A stretch of DNA of 64,000 nt from the NCBI RefSeq assembly GCF_001989615.1, contig NZ_CP019067.1, forward strand, positions 186,001 to 250,000, read 5' to 3'. The notes below the pieces were generated by a model. That model had not been told where the DNA came from, ran no database searches, and saw only the letters and a list, made by a program, of their open reading frames with translations. The position numbers were made by a program, and so were the translations under genes. This document shows positions 20,332 through 57,931 of this stretch, piece after piece (position 1 is the stretch's first letter; each line of letters begins with the position of its first letter). The DNA comes from Halorientalis sp. IM1011. Lineage in GTDB: Archaea > Halobacteriota > Halobacteria > Halobacteriales > Haloarculaceae.

Positions 20332-22173
20332 ATGGGCGACTCGCAAGGCCACTCCGAGCGACTGTGGGAGTACCTCTGGCGACTCGATCGAGAGACCAGA
20401 TCCGCGTTGCGGATGCGTCCGACCGCGCTGCTGGATCGGTCGCAACTCTCCCCAGAGGAACGGGAACTCGCCGACCGCCTCGCCAGCGACGGCGGCCGGG
20501 ATCCACCGACGGGGCGGGCCGGCGGCGACGGATCGGGTACTCCCGGCGGTGACGGAGGGGACGGCGGCGGGCCACCCGACGCCGGCGGAGGCGGGGCCGA
20601 CGGCGGGGACGGGGACGACGGCGGTGATGACGGCGGCTCGGCCTTCGACGTCGGCGGGACGTACGGCCGCCGACAGAAGGTCGGCCTCGTGCTCGGACCG
20701 GTGCTGTTCGCGGCGATCATGCTGCTCCCGACCCCGGAGGGGCTGTCGCCGGGCGGGCAGGCGGTCGGCGCGACGACGGCCTGGGTGGCGGTGTGGTGGA
20801 TCTCGGAGGCCATCCCCATCCCGGCCACGTCGCTGCTTCCGATCGTGTTGTTCCCGCTGACCGGGGCGCTGGACGTCGACGCGACCACCGCGCCCTACGC
20901 GAACGACCTGATCTTCCTGTTCATGGGCGGCTTTTTCATCGCGATGGCGATGCAGCGCTGGGACCTCCACCGCCGGATCGCGCTGCGAACGATCCGGGTG
21001 ATCGGGGCCGGACCGGAGCGGATCATCCTCGGGTTCATGGTCGCGACCGCCTTCCTCTCCATGTGGGTCTCTAACACCGCGACGACGATGATGATGACGC
21101 CCATCGGGCTCGCGGTGATCCTCCAGACGAGCGACCTGGTCGACCGGGCCGACTCGGACGTCCCGACGGCACAGGGTGAGTTCAGGTTCGGCACGGCCCT
21201 GATGCTCTGTATCGCCTACTCGGCCTCGGTCGGCGGCGTCGGCACGATAATCGGCACCCCGCCGAACCTCGTGTTGGTCGGTGCGATCAACGAGACGTTC
21301 GGGCAGTCGATCTCGTTCGCCCAGTGGATGCTCTACGGCGTCCCCATCGCCGCGCTGGGCGTCGCGATCATCTGGGTGTACGTCACCAGATTCCTGTTGC
21401 CCCCGCGGATGGACACGCTCCCCGGCGGGATGGACGTCATCGACGACGAACTCGACGCGCTCGGTACGATGAGTCGCGAAGAGAAACTCGTCCTCGCCGT
21501 GTTCACCGTGACCGCGGCCGCCTGGATTTCCCGGTCGTTCGTCCTGGAGCCCATCGTCCCCGGCATCTCCGACAGCGTGATCGCCATCGCCGGCGCGCTG
21601 GCGCTGTTCCTGATCCCCGCGAGCGAGGACGACGGGTCGTTCACTTTCCTGCTGGACTGGGACACCGCCGTCGGCATCCCGTGGGGAATCATCCTCCTGT
21701 TCGGCGGTGGGCTGTCGATCGCCGCTGGCTTCGAACAGGCTGGACTCGCCGTGTGGATCGGCGAGCAACTCGGCGCGCTGCAGGGAGTCTCCATACTCCT
21801 CGTCATGACTGTCGTCGTCGTCCTGACGATATTCATGACGGAAGTCACCTCGAACACGGCGACCACCGCGATGTTGATGCCGATCATGGCCTCGCTCGCG
21901 GTCGGGCTCTCGATCCATCCCTACGGGATCATGATCGCCGCGGCGACCGCCGCGTCGTTCGCGTTCATGCTCCCCGTGGCCACGCCCCCGAACGCCGTCG
22001 TCTTCGGCTCCGGGTACATCACGATGCCCCAGATGGCCAAGACCGGCTTCGGACTCAACATCATCGGCGTCCTGCTGGTCATCGCGCTCTCGCTGACCTG
22101 GCTCCCGCTCGTCTGGGGCATCGACGTCGGCCAGCTCCCCCAGTGGGCCGGGCTGATCGTCCCACCCCCGTGA
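20332..22173 (+). CDS. SLC13/DASS family anion (dicarboxylate) transporter
   Basis: A 613-residue transporter of the divalent anion:sodium symporter family. The two family signatures are MWVSNTATTMMMTPIG and EVTSNTATTAMLMPIM, which form the paired SNT sodium and substrate sites in the two repeats. About eleven hydrophobic helices follow a soluble N-terminal region of about 110 residues that includes a long Gly/Asp-rich linker (about 60-100). Typical substrates are succinate, malate, citrate or sulfate; no finer call is possible. The start ATG 20332 follows an AT-rich promoter (GTATTTTCAGTTATATT); upstream in-frame residues look non-coding. Confidence 0.9.
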   Translation: MGDSQGHSERLWEYLWRLDRETRSALRMRPTALLDRSQLSPEERELADRLASDGGRDPPTGRAGGDGSGTPGGDGGDGGGPPDAGGGGADGGDGDDGGDDGGSAFDVGGTYGRRQKVGLVLGPVLFAAIMLLPTPEGLSPGGQAVGATTAWVAVWWISEAIPIPATSLLPIVLFPLTGALDVDATTAPYANDLIFLFMGGFFIAMAMQRWDLHRRIALRTIRVIGAGPERIILGFMVATAFLSMWVSNTATTMMMTPIGLAVILQTSDLVDRADSDVPTAQGEFRFGTALMLCIAYSASVGGVGTIIGTPPNLVLVGAINETFGQSISFAQWMLYGVPIAALGVAIIWVYVTRFLLPPRMDTLPGGMDVIDDELDALGTMSREEKLVLAVFTVTAAAWISRSFVLEPIVPGISDSVIAIAGALALFLIPASEDDGSFTFLLDWDTAVGIPWGIILLFGGGLSIAAGFEQAGLAVWIGEQLGALQGVSILLVMTVVVVLTIFMTEVTSNTATTAMLMPIMASLAVGLSIHPYGIMIAAATAASFAFMLPVATPPNAVVFGSGYITMPQMAKTGFGLNIIGVLLVIALSLTWLPLVWGIDVGQLPQWAGLIVPPP

Positions 22174-53323: not shown

Positions 53324-53836
53324 TTAGATCAACACGGCGAGCAGGAACCCGAGGACGAGCAACGTCGTCAGCAGGAACTGCGCCACGGTGCTGGCGAGCA
53401 TCCCGACGGTCGTGTAGACGGCCGTGCGCGCGCTGGAACCGGTGTCGCCGGTGCGTTGCAGTTCCGACAGGAAGACGACGCTGGCGACGCCGGCGAGGAT
53501 ACCGAACGGACCGGCGACGAAAAAGAGGAGGAAGCCTGCCACCCCTGCGATGACCGTCGTCAGGTTCCCGGCCCCGCTGACTTTCGCCGACACCGCACCG
53601 GCGAACCAGTCGATGACGACGATCAGCAGCCCCAGCAGCGTCAGCGCGCCCAGCACGAGCAGGCCGGGATCGACGTAGCCCGTCGACCACCAGTAGAGGT
53701 AGACGCCCCCCAGTGAGAGGAGGGCGCCGGGAACCAGCGGGACGAGTGATCCGACGACGCCGGCCAGCGCCAGTCCGACTGCGAGCCATACCACGAGGTC
53801 GGTGCCGAGAACGGTCGTGAGGACAGGTCCAGTCAT
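53324..53836 (-). CDS. DUF456 family membrane protein
   Basis: 170 residues with about four to five hydrophobic helices. The family hallmarks are LAGVVGSLVPLVPGALLSLGG near the N-terminus and a Gly-rich helix FLLFFVAGPFGILAG. DUF456 proteins are conserved in bacteria and archaea without known function. The ATG overlaps the TmcA stop by four bases (ATGA), so it is translationally coupled to TmcA. Confidence 0.85.
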   Translation of the reverse strand: MTGPVLTTVLGTDLVVWLAVGLALAGVVGSLVPLVPGALLSLGGVYLYWWSTGYVDPGLLVLGALTLLGLLIVVIDWFAGAVSAKVSGAGNLTTVIAGVAGFLLFFVAGPFGILAGVASVVFLSELQRTGDTGSSARTAVYTTVGMLASTVAQFLLTTLLVLGFLLAVLI

Positions 53837-56079
53837 CTGTATCGATCGGCCTCCGTGTGTGCCGCGTCCGAGCCGAACGCGTCGACGAGCGGTTCCAGCG
53901 CGTCGCCGAGCGCACGCATCGCCTGCGCCGTCGAGTGATAGTTGAGATCGGCCGCTACTTCGTCCCACGGGCGTCCCTGCAGAGGTTTCACGACCAGCAG
54001 TCGCTCCTCGCGGGCCGTGAGGTCCAGTTCGGTATCCCCGACGAAGTACGCGACCACCAGCCGGCGGTAGGACCCAGGGGCCATGTCGAACAGGCCGGGG
54101 CCGAAGGCCGCGCTCGCGACGTGTCGCCACTCCCAGTCGTCGAGGTCGGGGTCGCCGTCCCGGTCCAGCGCCGAGAGCGTCGCTCGCGCCACGTCCGGAT
54201 CGAGGTCGGCGAGCGGGTCCGCCAGCACGTCGCCGACGCGCGCGACGAACTGGTCGGCGTGACGTTCGAACAGATCGGTCCCCGCCTCACTCGTGGGGTC
54301 GAGCATGAGTGCGGAATACTCGCCGCTCTCGTCGTTGCGGGTCGTCGAGAGATGTACGGATCGATAGCCGTTGGCGGCCCAGAAGGAGAGCAGTTCCGGG
54401 GTCGCGCCGTAGCCGACGCCGAGCCAGTCGGCAGTTGTGGCGAACTCCGCGCGGATCTCGTCGAGGAGGCGCGACCCGAGGCCACGCGACCGGGCCGCGT
54501 GGTGGGTCGCGATGCGGAGGACGCGGTAGCCGACCGGGACGCCGGCGGACTCGTCGCGGAGCTGGGTCGTCAGCACGTCCGGGAGCATGTTCCCGCGGAT
54601 CCGGCCGCCGTCGTACATGTCCGCGCGCGTCCCGGCGTCGAGCCCGCCCTCGCGAGCCAGCAGCGCGACGGAGACGACGTGGCCGTCGTGGACGAGCGCG
54701 CGGACCGCAACGTTCGGGGCGTCCAGCAACCGCGCCAGATCGTCGGGTTCGGTCCGGTAGTGGGCGAGCACGAGCAGTCCGAACACCTCCCGCAACAGGT
54801 GTTCGTCGGCCAGCAAGCCGGCAGCATCTATGGCCTCGTACGTCACGGTCTCGGGTCGTGCGTCATCCACGAGGGGATCGACCGGCGGCCGGGCGTCCAG
54901 CAACAGCGCCCGGAAGGCCCACACCTCTACTGGATCGCCCGCCGCGTAGCGGATCGGTTCGGCCATGCGGACCTCGATCACCTCGTGGTGGCTCTCGTCG
55001 AGGCGGTCCCGGAACCGCACGGAGAAACCTCGGCCTGCGCCCTCGTAGCCGTGGACGGTGGTGGTGAACGCGACTGCCGGCGCGTCGAGGAACGACTCGA
55101 GGACGTGGACCGGGAGGGCTGCGGCCTCGTCGACGATCACGGCGTCCGGGTCGCCGGGCAGGCCGTCCCCGTCGGCGCAGTCGGCCGCTCGCCGGAACCG
55201 AATCCGGCCGTCGGTGGCCCGCAGGTCGTGGGGCGTCTCCGGGTCGTCGACGGAGACGAGGGCGTCTGCGCCAGCGAGGCGCTCGCGGGCACGTGCGAGG
55301 ACTTCCGCAGCGTTGCGATAGGTCGGGGCTGCGACCAGCACGTCTCGGCCGGCGAGCGCGAGCGCCCCGGCGGCCAGTCCCGCGGCGCTGGATTTCCCGC
55401 GCCCGCGGTCGGCCTCGACCACGACGGCCGCCCCCTCGTCGCGGAGGCGTTCGAGTTCGTTCACGGCCGTCGCCTGATCGTCCGTCAGGCAAGCTTCGTA
55501 GACGGCATCGGGGAACGTGCGTCCGTCGGGCACGGAGAGCCCGCCACCAGCCCGCACCGGCGCGGGATCGGTCAGCCCGTCGCGTTCGACTCGCTCGGCG
55601 CCGACGTCGACGATGGCGATCCCGGGGTGTGCCCGGAGCGTCTCGACCAGCCGGTGGCGGAAGTTCCCGGTGACGGCGGACAGGTCGGCGGGCGGAACCG
55701 CGAGTCCCTCGTCGAACCCGTCGCGGCGGTCGGGCCAGTCGTCGAGCGGTGGGGTCAGCAGGATCAGGAGACCGCCACCGTCCACGACGCCGACGGCCCG
55801 ACCGATCGCGTTGGGGCGACAGGCCGCGTGCAGGTCGAGGACGACGGCGTCACGGGTGGTGCCGAGCAGTTCCGCGGAGCGCTCGGGCAGGAGGTGTTCG
55901 CAGTCGAGGGCGGGGTCGGGACCGACGAGGGTCGCGTCGGATCGGTCGATTCCCGCGGCGTCGAGCGCGTCGGCCGCGGTGCGGCGCGTCCCGTCCGGCT
56001 CCCCCGCGAGGACGAGCAGCCGGCGCTCGTCCGTCTCGCGGGCTTGCTCACGTAACCGGCGGACGACGCCGTCGATCAT
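53833..56079 (-). CDS. tmcA: tRNA(Met) cytidine acetyltransferase TmcA
   Basis: 748 residues, the archaeal TmcA/Nat10 homologue that makes N4-acetylcytidine in RNA using acetyl-CoA and ATP. An N-terminal DUF1726 domain is followed by the P-loop VVVEADRGRGKSSAAGLAAG and Walker B VIVDEAAALPV of the helicase-like module. The GNAT domain follows with RVLRIATHHAARSRGLGSRL. A C-terminal tRNA-binding tail is rich in Arg and Asp. In archaea many RNAs besides elongator tRNA-Met may be modified. It is upstream of the DUF456 gene in one transcript. Confidence 0.94.
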   Translation of the reverse strand: MIDGVVRRLREQARETDERRLLVLAGEPDGTRRTAADALDAAGIDRSDATLVGPDPALDCEHLLPERSAELLGTTRDAVVLDLHAACRPNAIGRAVGVVDGGGLLILLTPPLDDWPDRRDGFDEGLAVPPADLSAVTGNFRHRLVETLRAHPGIAIVDVGAERVERDGLTDPAPVRAGGGLSVPDGRTFPDAVYEACLTDDQATAVNELERLRDEGAAVVVEADRGRGKSSAAGLAAGALALAGRDVLVAAPTYRNAAEVLARARERLAGADALVSVDDPETPHDLRATDGRIRFRRAADCADGDGLPGDPDAVIVDEAAALPVHVLESFLDAPAVAFTTTVHGYEGAGRGFSVRFRDRLDESHHEVIEVRMAEPIRYAAGDPVEVWAFRALLLDARPPVDPLVDDARPETVTYEAIDAAGLLADEHLLREVFGLLVLAHYRTEPDDLARLLDAPNVAVRALVHDGHVVSVALLAREGGLDAGTRADMYDGGRIRGNMLPDVLTTQLRDESAGVPVGYRVLRIATHHAARSRGLGSRLLDEIRAEFATTADWLGVGYGATPELLSFWAANGYRSVHLSTTRNDESGEYSALMLDPTSEAGTDLFERHADQFVARVGDVLADPLADLDPDVARATLSALDRDGDPDLDDWEWRHVASAAFGPGLFDMAPGSYRRLVVAYFVGDTELDLTAREERLLVVKPLQGRPWDEVAADLNYHSTAQAMRALGDALEPLVDAFGSDAAHTEADRYR

Positions 56080-56239
56080 ACAGCCTCATCGACGAGCCGC
56101 GGGCTTGGGTCTGGCGGTCTCGGGGGTCCGCGAGCGCATCGAGGGACTGTCGTCGGTCGTGAGCAGGGCCCGGCCGAACCAACCGGCCCAGAAATCACAT
56201 GTGGACGGCTGACACGGTTGTGGCGGCATCGAAAGCGCT

Positions 56240-56386
56240 TTTAGCAGGGGATAGCCAATGAAGGGTACAGCCTGCGCGGGGTTGATGATGCTCCTAGCCT
56301 CTCAGGACTTTACCGTCGGCCGGCACGGACGATCGGCCGACTCTCAGGCGGGGGAGCGCGAGCCCACGCGCGGGAGGTGATTACCA
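56240..56386 (+). promoter_or_regulatory. Promoter and structured leader of the L7Ae operon
   Basis: GCTTTTAGC (near 56238-56246) is the best TATA candidate; a start near 56270 leaves about 115 bases of leader. GTCGGCCG (56315-56322), loop of 11, CGGCCGAC (56334-56341) is a perfect 8-bp stem. AGCCTG (near 56269-56274) can pair with CAGGACT (56303-56309) with one bulge around TTGATGATG. A strong GGAGGTGA site (56373-56380) precedes ATG 56387. L7Ae binds kink-turns and autoregulates in some archaea. The rest of the 56080-56239 gap shows nothing recognisable. Confidence 0.5.
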
Positions 56387-56749
56387 ATGTCAGTATACGT
56401 CGATTTCGACGTCCCAGCCGACCTCGCAGAGGACGCCCTCGAGGCGCTCGAGGTCGCACGGGACACAGGAGTTGTAAAGAAAGGGACAAACGAGACGACC
56501 AAAGCAGTCGAGCGAGGGAACGCGGACCTCGTGTTCATCGCCGAAGACGTTCAGCCCGAGGAGATCGTCATGCATCTCCCCGAGCTGGCCGACGAGAAGG
56601 ACGTTCCCTATCTGTTCGTCGAGTCCCAGTCCGACGTGGGTCACGCAGCCGGACTGGAAGTCGGCAGTGCCGCGGCGGCCATCGTCACGGCCGGCGACGC
56701 CAGCGGCGACGTCGACGACATCGCAGAGAAACTCGAGGACCTCCAGTAG
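56387..56749 (+). CDS. rpl7ae: Large ribosomal subunit protein eL8 (L7Ae), kink-turn binder
   Basis: 120 residues. It begins [20 protein letters not shown]. The RNA-contact motif is [20 protein letters not shown], followed by [21 protein letters not shown]7Ae is a shared component of the ribosome, C/D and H/ACA RNPs and RNase P, recognising kink-turns. Its strong Shine-Dalgarno site and long leader contrast with the leaderless genes around it. It heads the L7Ae-S28e-L24e-Ndk operon. Confidence 0.97.
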
Positions 56750-56759
56750 GTGACTCGAT

Positions 56760-56990
56760 ATGAGCGCAGAAGAAACTGAAGACGACGGCGGCTCGACGCC
56801 CGCGGAGGTCATCGAGGTCGTCGGCCGAACCGGGATGCACGGGGAGGCCATGCAGGTCAAGTGTCGCATCCGCGAGGGCGAGAACCAGGGCCGCATCATC
56901 ACCCGGAACGTCCTCGGCCCGGTGCGCGAGGGCGACGTGCTACAGCTCCGGGAGACGGCCCGCGAGGCCGACCAGATCGGAGGACAATAA
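56760..56990 (+). CDS. rps28e: Small ribosomal subunit protein eS28
   Basis: 76 residues with the S28e core [20 protein letters not shown], then [20 protein letters not shown] and [19 protein letters not shown]. The fold is a small OB-like barrel near the mRNA exit. The stop and L24e ATG overlap as TAATG. Confidence 0.96.
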
Positions 56991-57457
56991 TGCCACGAAC
57001 CCGCGAATGTGACTTCTGTGGCGACGACATCGAACCCGGCACGGGCACCATGTTCGTGCAGAACGACGGGTCGACCGTCATGTTCTGCTCCTCGAAGTGC
57101 GAGAAGAACGCCGACCTCGGCCGCGAGGCCCGCGACGTGGGCTGGACCGAGGCCGGCCGTGCCGCCGGCGGCAAGCGCGCCGCCGAGACGGCCGACGAAC
57201 CCGACGAGGAACCCGAAGCCGAGGAAGAATCCGAAGCCGAACCCGAAGACCCGGCCGCGACCGAGGCCGACGTCGTCGAGGACACGGGCGCAGCCCCCGA
57301 CCTCGAAGACGCCGAGTCCGAGGCCACGCCCGGCCCCGAGGGTGAGGGTGCCGACGAGGCGGCCGCCGACGCGGACGCCGACTCCGCCGAGGCCGTCGAC
57401 GAGGACGCGAGCGACGAAGAGGACGAAGACGCGGAAGAAGAGGAGGCCGAGGCGTAA
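56990..57457 (+). CDS. rpl24e: Large ribosomal subunit protein eL24 with long acidic tail
   Basis: 155 residues, more than twice the usual archaeal L24e length of about 60-65. The core is complete: RECDFCGDDIEPGTGTMFVQ and MFCSSKCEKNADLGREARDV, with the CxxC...CxxxC zinc site. From about residue 66 the chain becomes a Glu/Asp/Ala-rich tail (DEEPEAEEESEAEPEDPAAT and on) of about 90 residues, probably disordered. It is one base overlapped with S28e and directly abuts the Ndk ATG. Confidence 0.94.
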   Translation: MPRTRECDFCGDDIEPGTGTMFVQNDGSTVMFCSSKCEKNADLGREARDVGWTEAGRAAGGKRAAETADEPDEEPEAEEESEAEPEDPAATEADVVEDTGAAPDLEDAESEATPGPEGEGADEAAADADADSAEAVDEDASDEEDEDAEEEEAEA

Positions 57458-57931
57458 ATGAGTCATCACGACGAGCGCACGTTCGTGATGGTCAAGCCCG
57501 ACGGCGTCCAGCGCGGCCTGATCGGCGAGATCATCGGCCGTCTCGAAGAGCGCGGCCTGAAGCTCGCCGGTGCGAAGTTCATGCAGATCGACGAGGAACT
57601 CGCCCACGAGCACTACGGTGAACACGAGGACAAGCCCTTCTTCGACGGCCTGGTCGAGTTCATCACCTCCGGTCCGGTGATGGCCATGGTCTGGGAGGGC
57701 GCTGACGCCACCCGGCAGGTCCGCCAGATGATGGGAACGACCGACCCCGCCGAGGCCGCACCGGGCACCATCCGGGGCGACCTCGGCCTGGACCTCGGGC
57801 AGAACGTCATCCACGGCTCCGACCACGAGGATTCCGGCGCGAACGAGCGGGAGATCGACCTGTTCTTCGACGAGGAGGAACTGGTCGACTGGGAGAAATC
57901 GGACGCCGAGTGGGTGTACGAGGACGCGTAA
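57458..57931 (+). CDS. ndk: Nucleoside diphosphate kinase
   Basis: 157 residues. It transfers phosphate among nucleoside tri- and diphosphates via a phosphohistidine. The N-terminal [20 protein letters not shown] is followed by the active-site block [20 protein letters not shown] (His of HGSD). The chain carries the [20 protein letters not shown] extension common in archaea. It follows L24e with no gap and is the last gene of the operon. The gap to 57982 has no clear terminator. Confidence 0.96.

Follow-up and report, generated by a model that had tools for sequence, protein, structure and literature searches.

The window analysed here, a stretch of 64,000 nucleotides from Halorientalis sp. 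IM1011, contains a gene for L7Ae (eL8), whose product is a standard L7Ae as seen from its matches to TIGR03677 and to the H. marismortui chain 1s72_F; the L7Ae loci closest to it are those of Halorientalis. The genes for S28e, L24e and nucleoside-diphosphate kinase (Ndk) follow so closely that the four likely form a single operon. The gene divergent from L7Ae, at positions 53833-56079, encodes TmcA, the tRNA(Met) cytidine acetyltransferase (NF041296, 1229 bits). The members of the likely operon are the following:

56387 to 56749, + strand: L7Ae (eL8) gene (TIGR03677, 176.8 bits, over the cut-off; H. marismortui L7Ae chain 1s72_F, E 2.4e-57)
56760 to 56990, + strand: S28e gene, likely in an operon with L7Ae
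56990 to 57457, + strand: L24e gene, likely in an operon with L7Ae (PF01246, 83.1 bits)
57458 to 57931, + strand: Ndk gene, likely in an operon with L7Ae

The stretch preceding L7Ae had been described in a first-pass annotation as a long leader with a strong ribosome site. Such a site is indeed present ahead of the ATG at 56387, and the leader is delimited by the elements listed here:

56237 to 56245, + strand: TATA-like promoter element GCTTTTAGC, with CGAAA directly upstream
56265 to 56386, + strand: whole structured leader (match to the model R1 at 56265-56389, 112.9 bits)
56373 to 56381, + strand: Shine-Dalgarno (SD)-like site GGAGGTGAT / GGAGGUGAU, ahead of the ATG at 56387

The leader RNA would begin near 56265. 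Its length is supported indirectly by a comparison of 81 leaders (80 relatives plus the locus L089), since the distance from the TATA-like element to the putative leader start is 26 nt in 30, 27 nt in 45 and 28 nt in three of them, i.e. in 78 of the 81 loci; two of the remaining three are broken by contig ends and one (L076) has diverged. The 5' and 3' arms are alike in 78 of the 81 leaders, the length of which varies from 89 to 196 nt across the relatives. The SD-like site is well preserved; a match of at least five nucleotides was found in 76 of 92 relatives and a shorter one in the other 16. It should also be mentioned that the first leader bases, (G/A)UAC at 56265-56268, are nearly invariant (TAC in 88/92); they could pair with the GUG of the SD region in 64/92 or, alternatively, may represent an initiator-type signal.

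From about 56265 to 56386 the leader is predicted to form one long-range structure, in which its 5' end pairs with a stretch entering the SD site. The helix P1 and the C-helix—together 12 bp—enclose an internal loop, which is followed by the NC-helix (56289-56295 with 56352-56358 and 56297-56299 with 56347-56349) and a variable tip. The individual elements are these:

56271 to 56278, + strand: 5' strand of P1, CCUGCGCG, pairing with 56367-56374 (covariation)
56279 to 56282, + strand: 5' strand of the C-helix, GGGU, pairing with 56362-56365 (covariation)
56283 to 56286, + strand: putative kink-turn bulge, four nucleotides (UGAU) here, three in 25/92 relatives
56287 to 56288, + strand: G1b and A2b of the proposed tandem sheared pairs (GA in 92/92 rows, 50/50 unfitted)
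56289 to 56299, + strand: 5' strand of the NC-helix, UGCUCCU-A-GCC (covariation)
56300 to 56346, + strand: variable apical part, holding AGG(G)A at 56304-56307 and an unconserved 8-bp hairpin at 56315-56341
56347 to 56358, + strand: 3' strand of the NC-helix, GGC-GG-GGGAGCG (covariation)
56359, + strand: extra n-strand nucleotide, C here and U, A or G in relatives
56360 to 56361, + strand: G2n and A1n, partner of 56287-56288 (GA in 90/92 rows, AA in two)
56362 to 56365, + strand: 3' strand of the C-helix, GCCC (covariation), with A56366 unpaired between the C-helix and P1
56367 to 56374, + strand: 3' strand of P1, CGCGCGGG (covariation), its final two bases common to the SD site

A kink-turn-like element lies in the 5' untranslated region of the l7ae gene, next to or over the SD site, as it does in autoregulatory leaders. 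P1 covers just the first two SD bases and is predicted to be closed in the window without protein, the unpaired probability being 0.00-0.01 at 56367-56374. The second stem suspected around TTGATGATG (56282) corresponds, far beyond chance, to the 5' strand of the covarying internal-loop structure; the 3' strand GCGAG (56358-56362) and the helix P1 joining the leader 5' end to the SD site had both been overlooked.

The covariation analysis proposed in the first-pass annotation as a check was performed on two alignments, one (A1) of 50 sequences made by MAFFT and not fitted to the structure, the other (A2) of 92 rows fitted to the model. In A1, standard pairs occupy 97.0% of the cells against 92.2% after shuffling, double changes are seen in 13 of the 22 pairs against 4.6 in shuffled data, and the covariation score of 0.238 exceeds all 500 shuffles (mean 0.141) as well as all slid controls (at most 0.119); from the same alignment, RNAalifold predicts 20 of the 22 pairs unaided. 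The corresponding A2 figures—95.5% of cells paired, double changes in 14/22 and a score of 0.314 against at most 0.147 for slid controls, with 96.9% of cells paired in the C-helix and 93.8% in the NC-helix and double changes in both—lean towards the model because this alignment was fitted to it. On a tree of L7Ae genes, 26, 11, 15, 22 and 9 changes were counted for the P1 pairs at columns 9, 10, 11, 12 and 13, respectively, which nevertheless stayed 97-100% standard; the changes recur across the tree and therefore reflect many events rather than one inherited event. As for the folding energy, the window leader has a z of -2.31 (6/200 dinucleotide shuffles as good) and four short relatives have values of -3.08 (L007, 0/200), -2.33 (L045, 4/200), -2.64 (L074, 1/200) and -3.38 (L058, 0/200); the compact leader of L141 folds no better than its shuffles (z -0.02, 94/200 as good).

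With regard to the internal loop, the lack of a CTGA partner had been noted, yet a partner is present in the GCGAG strand, the n strand reading CGA in 60 and UGA in 27 of the 92 rows. The GA of the b strand is found in all 92 rows of A2 and all 50 of the unfitted A1, and that of the n strand in 90/92 (AA in L133 and L139) and again in 50/50, so that the tandem G-A pairs of a standard kink-turn could form, flanked on either side by the C- and NC-helices. The b strand reads UGAUGA in 62/92 rows. A standard kink-turn would further have a bulge of three nucleotides and no extra n-strand base; the window departs from it in both respects, as the earlier suspicion of a variant structure had it, with a 4-nt bulge (67/92 rows, against 3 nt in 25/92) and with C56359 (an extra base at this position in 83/92 rows, none in nine). 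Both standard features are combined in seven of the 92 rows, L126-L132. The kink-turn score of the window was equalled by 6 of 100 shuffles, and the case therefore depends on the comparison of relatives and not on the window alone.

According to an alternative, the leader is a constitutive GC-rich 5' clamp, unresponsive to L7Ae, that sets mRNA stability or a fixed level of translation by means of a bulged helix without any kink-turn. It agrees with P1 being predicted closed without a ligand, with a report that H. volcanii does not use SD pairing (PMC3986360), and with the energy model, which favours folding the internal loop into an ordinary helix with bulges (UU/AG and UG/CG), a pairing that 72 of the 92 rows could keep. 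Since this pairing is the one preferred by the program and is so widely possible, the sequence alone leaves the kink unproven; the conservation of the GA on both strands, invariant on the b strand and nearly so on the n strand, nevertheless favours it. The outermost pair of the alternative fails, moreover, in 18 rows bearing C there, L058 folds with an open CAUGA/AGA loop, compact canonical-looking kink-turns occupy the same place in related lineages, and the element precedes the very gene whose product binds such motifs. We thus infer the kink geometry for this leader and regard the unresponsive clamp as unlikely.

The 8-bp hairpin, which the first-pass annotation had put first, is located in the apical part. 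Its description as perfect was correct (GTCGGCCG/CGGCCGAC, 56315-56341, with a loop of 11), and it is mildly unusual, one such hairpin appearing in 60 of 2000 mononucleotide shuffles of 56240-56386; as the functional core it had to be rejected, the insert bearing it being missing in the Halorientalis loci L007 and L089 and variable elsewhere. Judging from the alignments, it is a dispensable variable tip, because the arms of the leader are nearly constant and the middle is variable and almost missing in the two loci just named. The sequence CTCTCAGG occurs on either side of the variable hairpin, at 56299-56306 and 56341-56348, and its two copies are adjacent in L007 and L089, which have no insert, as if the tip had been gained or lost between direct repeats. 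The motif AGG(G)A at 56304-56307 (A2 columns 42-45) is nearly invariant, and no partner for it was supported by covariation in A2.

The tip is also central to an explanation that we consider less probable still, namely a two-state switch. In its off state, the 5' arm would be paired with the 3' arm that bears the SD site; in its on state, it would instead be paired with a nearby decoy in the tip, formed by AGCC and CAGGA. When the 5' half of the leader in the window is folded alone, it does form a hairpin of CCUG/CAGG and GGGGUU/AGCCUC, and the G at columns 43 and 44 of the AGG(G)A motif is kept in 90/92 rows. The decoy pairing, however, shows one double-change pair against 2.3 in shuffled data and a score of 0.115 against 0.109 (85/500 shuffles as high), and its pair 10-41 fails in 36 rows; the decoy switch (CCUG/CAGG, GGGGUU/AGCC) was thus rejected for its lack of covariation.

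The taxonomic distribution covers the class Halobacteria almost completely. The model R1 finds the element in 276 of 292 genomes (E at most 1e-3), all 292 possessing L7Ae, and when the loci of the 16 genomes without a match were searched directly, 13 proved to have it at the start of L7Ae (E 6.1e-9 or better). The last three (L140, L141 and L142) have a compact canonical-looking kink-turn at the same place near the SD site, of the kind CGU-GAU-GA-AGCGC ... GCGCU-GA-ACG followed by AGGUGA, the scores of which were equalled by 1, 3 and 1 of 100 shuffles, respectively. All the matches for which adjacency was scored, i.e. 92/92 aligned and 30/30 fetched class-wide, end at the L7Ae start codon. In the diverged L076, the kink-turn scorer picked another site (20/100 shuffles as good), and GGUCC/GGACC followed by GA was read by eye. 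In a sample of the phylum, 53 of 294 genomes gave a match, 52 of them from the same order or closer; the sole one from outside the order, in G337, lies on contig C6, with L7Ae on C4, and was taken as chance. Concerning the outgroup, 26 of 29 loci were scored, L176, L177 and L180 being excluded for not meeting the start-finding motif. The layout U-[GA]AU-GA ... GA-A in the same strand order is seen in 12 of these 26 non-haloarchaeal leaders. Of the 26, just L157, L160 and L173 scored above every one of their 100 shuffles; kink-turn scores of single sequences thus carry little weight as evidence. Since the 12 leaders exhibit the short layout in the same order, the comparison suggests that the haloarchaeal form grew from an older small kink-turn leader by extension of the C-helix and the tip.

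Within its own genome, the model search (E up to 10) gave no further copy besides the L7Ae leader; a weak match in the window at 21680-21745 on the - strand lies inside a long open reading frame on the other strand and was taken as chance. Extra matches in three other genomes (G089, G090 and G119) were rejected, being P1-like hairpins that lack a kink-turn and lie, together with an SD site, where a 4Fe-4S protein gene begins; so was a very weak match (L149) inside an open reading frame. In L146, L147 and L148, which come from three genomes belonging to the same genus, the P1-like GC hairpin running into the SD site lies at 1501-1557 and coincides with the end of a long upstream open reading frame. 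No evident copy of the leader that would point to rRNA mimicry was seen by eye in the first 600 bases of the genome's own 23S rRNA.

Two further explanations have very little probability. The leader could give rise to a box C/D guide RNA and stand before L7Ae by coincidence, given the UGAUGA and, in some relatives, CUGA boxes on either side of a stem; its would-be guide stretches, however, pair with each other, covarying, and so are not free for rRNA, it has no Rfam match, and in all aligned cases the L7Ae start is where the element ends. An upstream open reading frame beginning at the UGAUGA box, with an in-frame ATG at many loci and open to the L7Ae start in 24/92, might control L7Ae by translational coupling, but 19/92 relatives lack this ATG and the position of the stop differs widely among loci, so that it was rejected as not conserved.

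Based on these comparisons, the reading with most support is that of an autoregulatory L7Ae leader built around a box-C-like strand, as the first-pass annotation had proposed. We estimate the probability that the leader is a cis-acting autoregulatory RNA bound by L7Ae at roughly 0.8, and it is best read as a haloarchaeal, enlarged form of the autoregulatory kink-turn leader known for L7Ae, placed before L7Ae-S28e-L24e-Ndk, through which L7Ae probably switches off its own production. The leader 5' end would pair, via P1 and the C-helix, with the stretch running into the SD site, and the UGAU bulge with the juxtaposed GA/GA would form a kink-turn topped by the NC-helix. Once free L7Ae outnumbers the sites offered by 23S rRNA and guide RNAs, it would bind this kink-turn, lock the stem and keep the SD region closed, so that translation of L7Ae, and probably that of the downstream S28e-L24e-Ndk genes, would be reduced. 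The binding, the repression and the effect on the downstream genes are what we infer from the architecture together with the systems known in other archaea. Because P1 is predicted to be closed, the SD site is covered at two bases and SD pairing is reportedly unused in H. volcanii, L7Ae may act by locking a clamp that is already formed.

A bolder version of this reading, tentative and falling short of even odds, is a riboregulator common to the Halobacteria: the 12-bp helix would pre-clamp the SD site together with the 5' end of the mRNA, and L7Ae would lock the box-C/D-like kink-turn in this clamp. If true, it would mean control of translation that depends on both RNA structure and SD pairing in a group said to be without either, might determine how much the whole L7Ae-S28e-L24e-Ndk operon produces and would differ from the leaders of other archaea that are unfolded until L7Ae binds. 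To our knowledge, few cis-regulatory RNAs of archaea are known. The leader is testable in genetically tractable organisms, and it suggests a route from a small kink-turn leader to a large one within a single lineage. It is notable because, in work on H. volcanii, structured leaders were described as not typical of haloarchaea (PMC4983044) and SD pairing as not used at 5' untranslated regions (PMC3986360); both claims can be tested directly on a covarying, SD-overlapping leader that almost all of the haloarchaeal genomes sampled possess.

Part of the picture is already in print. Feedback by L7Ae was demonstrated by reporter and binding tests in other archaea, Sulfolobus and Archaeoglobus being the cases from which the mechanism here is drawn by analogy (PMC5539422, PMC6298567), and Daume et al. 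(2017) list H. volcanii and mention a Kt-b strand located further upstream in their alignment (PMC5539422). For the H. volcanii leader a kink-turn is published, as is the feedback by L7Ae, so that the kind is known; the full architecture, the covariation and the class-wide presence were not found in the literature compared. In the main-text passages compared, haloarchaeal binding or expression data for an L7Ae leader do not extend beyond a 50-nt H. volcanii fragment (PMC5539422), and the literature searches gave no covariation-based account of the haloarchaeal leader. Rfam 15 gave no near-gathering match in 56080-56800, and across the whole window just a tRNA elsewhere.

Concerning the related systems, the leader resembles those of S15 (Halobacteria), eL15 and L4 (Eckert and Weinberg 2020, PMC7247131) in being supported by covariation and in preceding ribosomal protein operons. 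No motif for L7Ae is listed in Table 1 of that paper, and its main text gave no hit for L7Ae, kink-turn or eL8, although 'eL7' is mentioned in the legend to Fig. 1; the architecture described here was found neither in its leader list nor by a term search of PMC2864571. With the box C/D kink-turn, the leader shares the UGAUGA b strand and, in the 27 rows mentioned, the UGA n strand, but it differs in its position within an mRNA leader, in both arms pairing along their length, in the second GA of the box aligning with the n-strand GA, and in CGA being commoner than UGA on the n strand. The closest relatives are the archaeal L7Ae kink-turn leaders (Daume et al. 2017, PMC5539422; Huang et al. 2019, PMC6298567), which have the same gene, an SD-adjacent site, a presumed feedback, and a GAU-like bulge followed by GA with GA on the other strand. 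High conservation was reported there for the Sulfolobales only (PMC5539422), whereas the haloarchaeal leader is strongly conserved; the leader of A. fulgidus was described as unfolded until bound, and the C-helices of such leaders as short and of low stability (PMC6298567), whereas here P1 lengthens the C-helix to 12 GC-rich pairs, as far as the 5' end of the mRNA. The haloarchaeal form is further distinguished from them by the variable domain at its tip, an often 4-nt bulge and the extra n-strand base.
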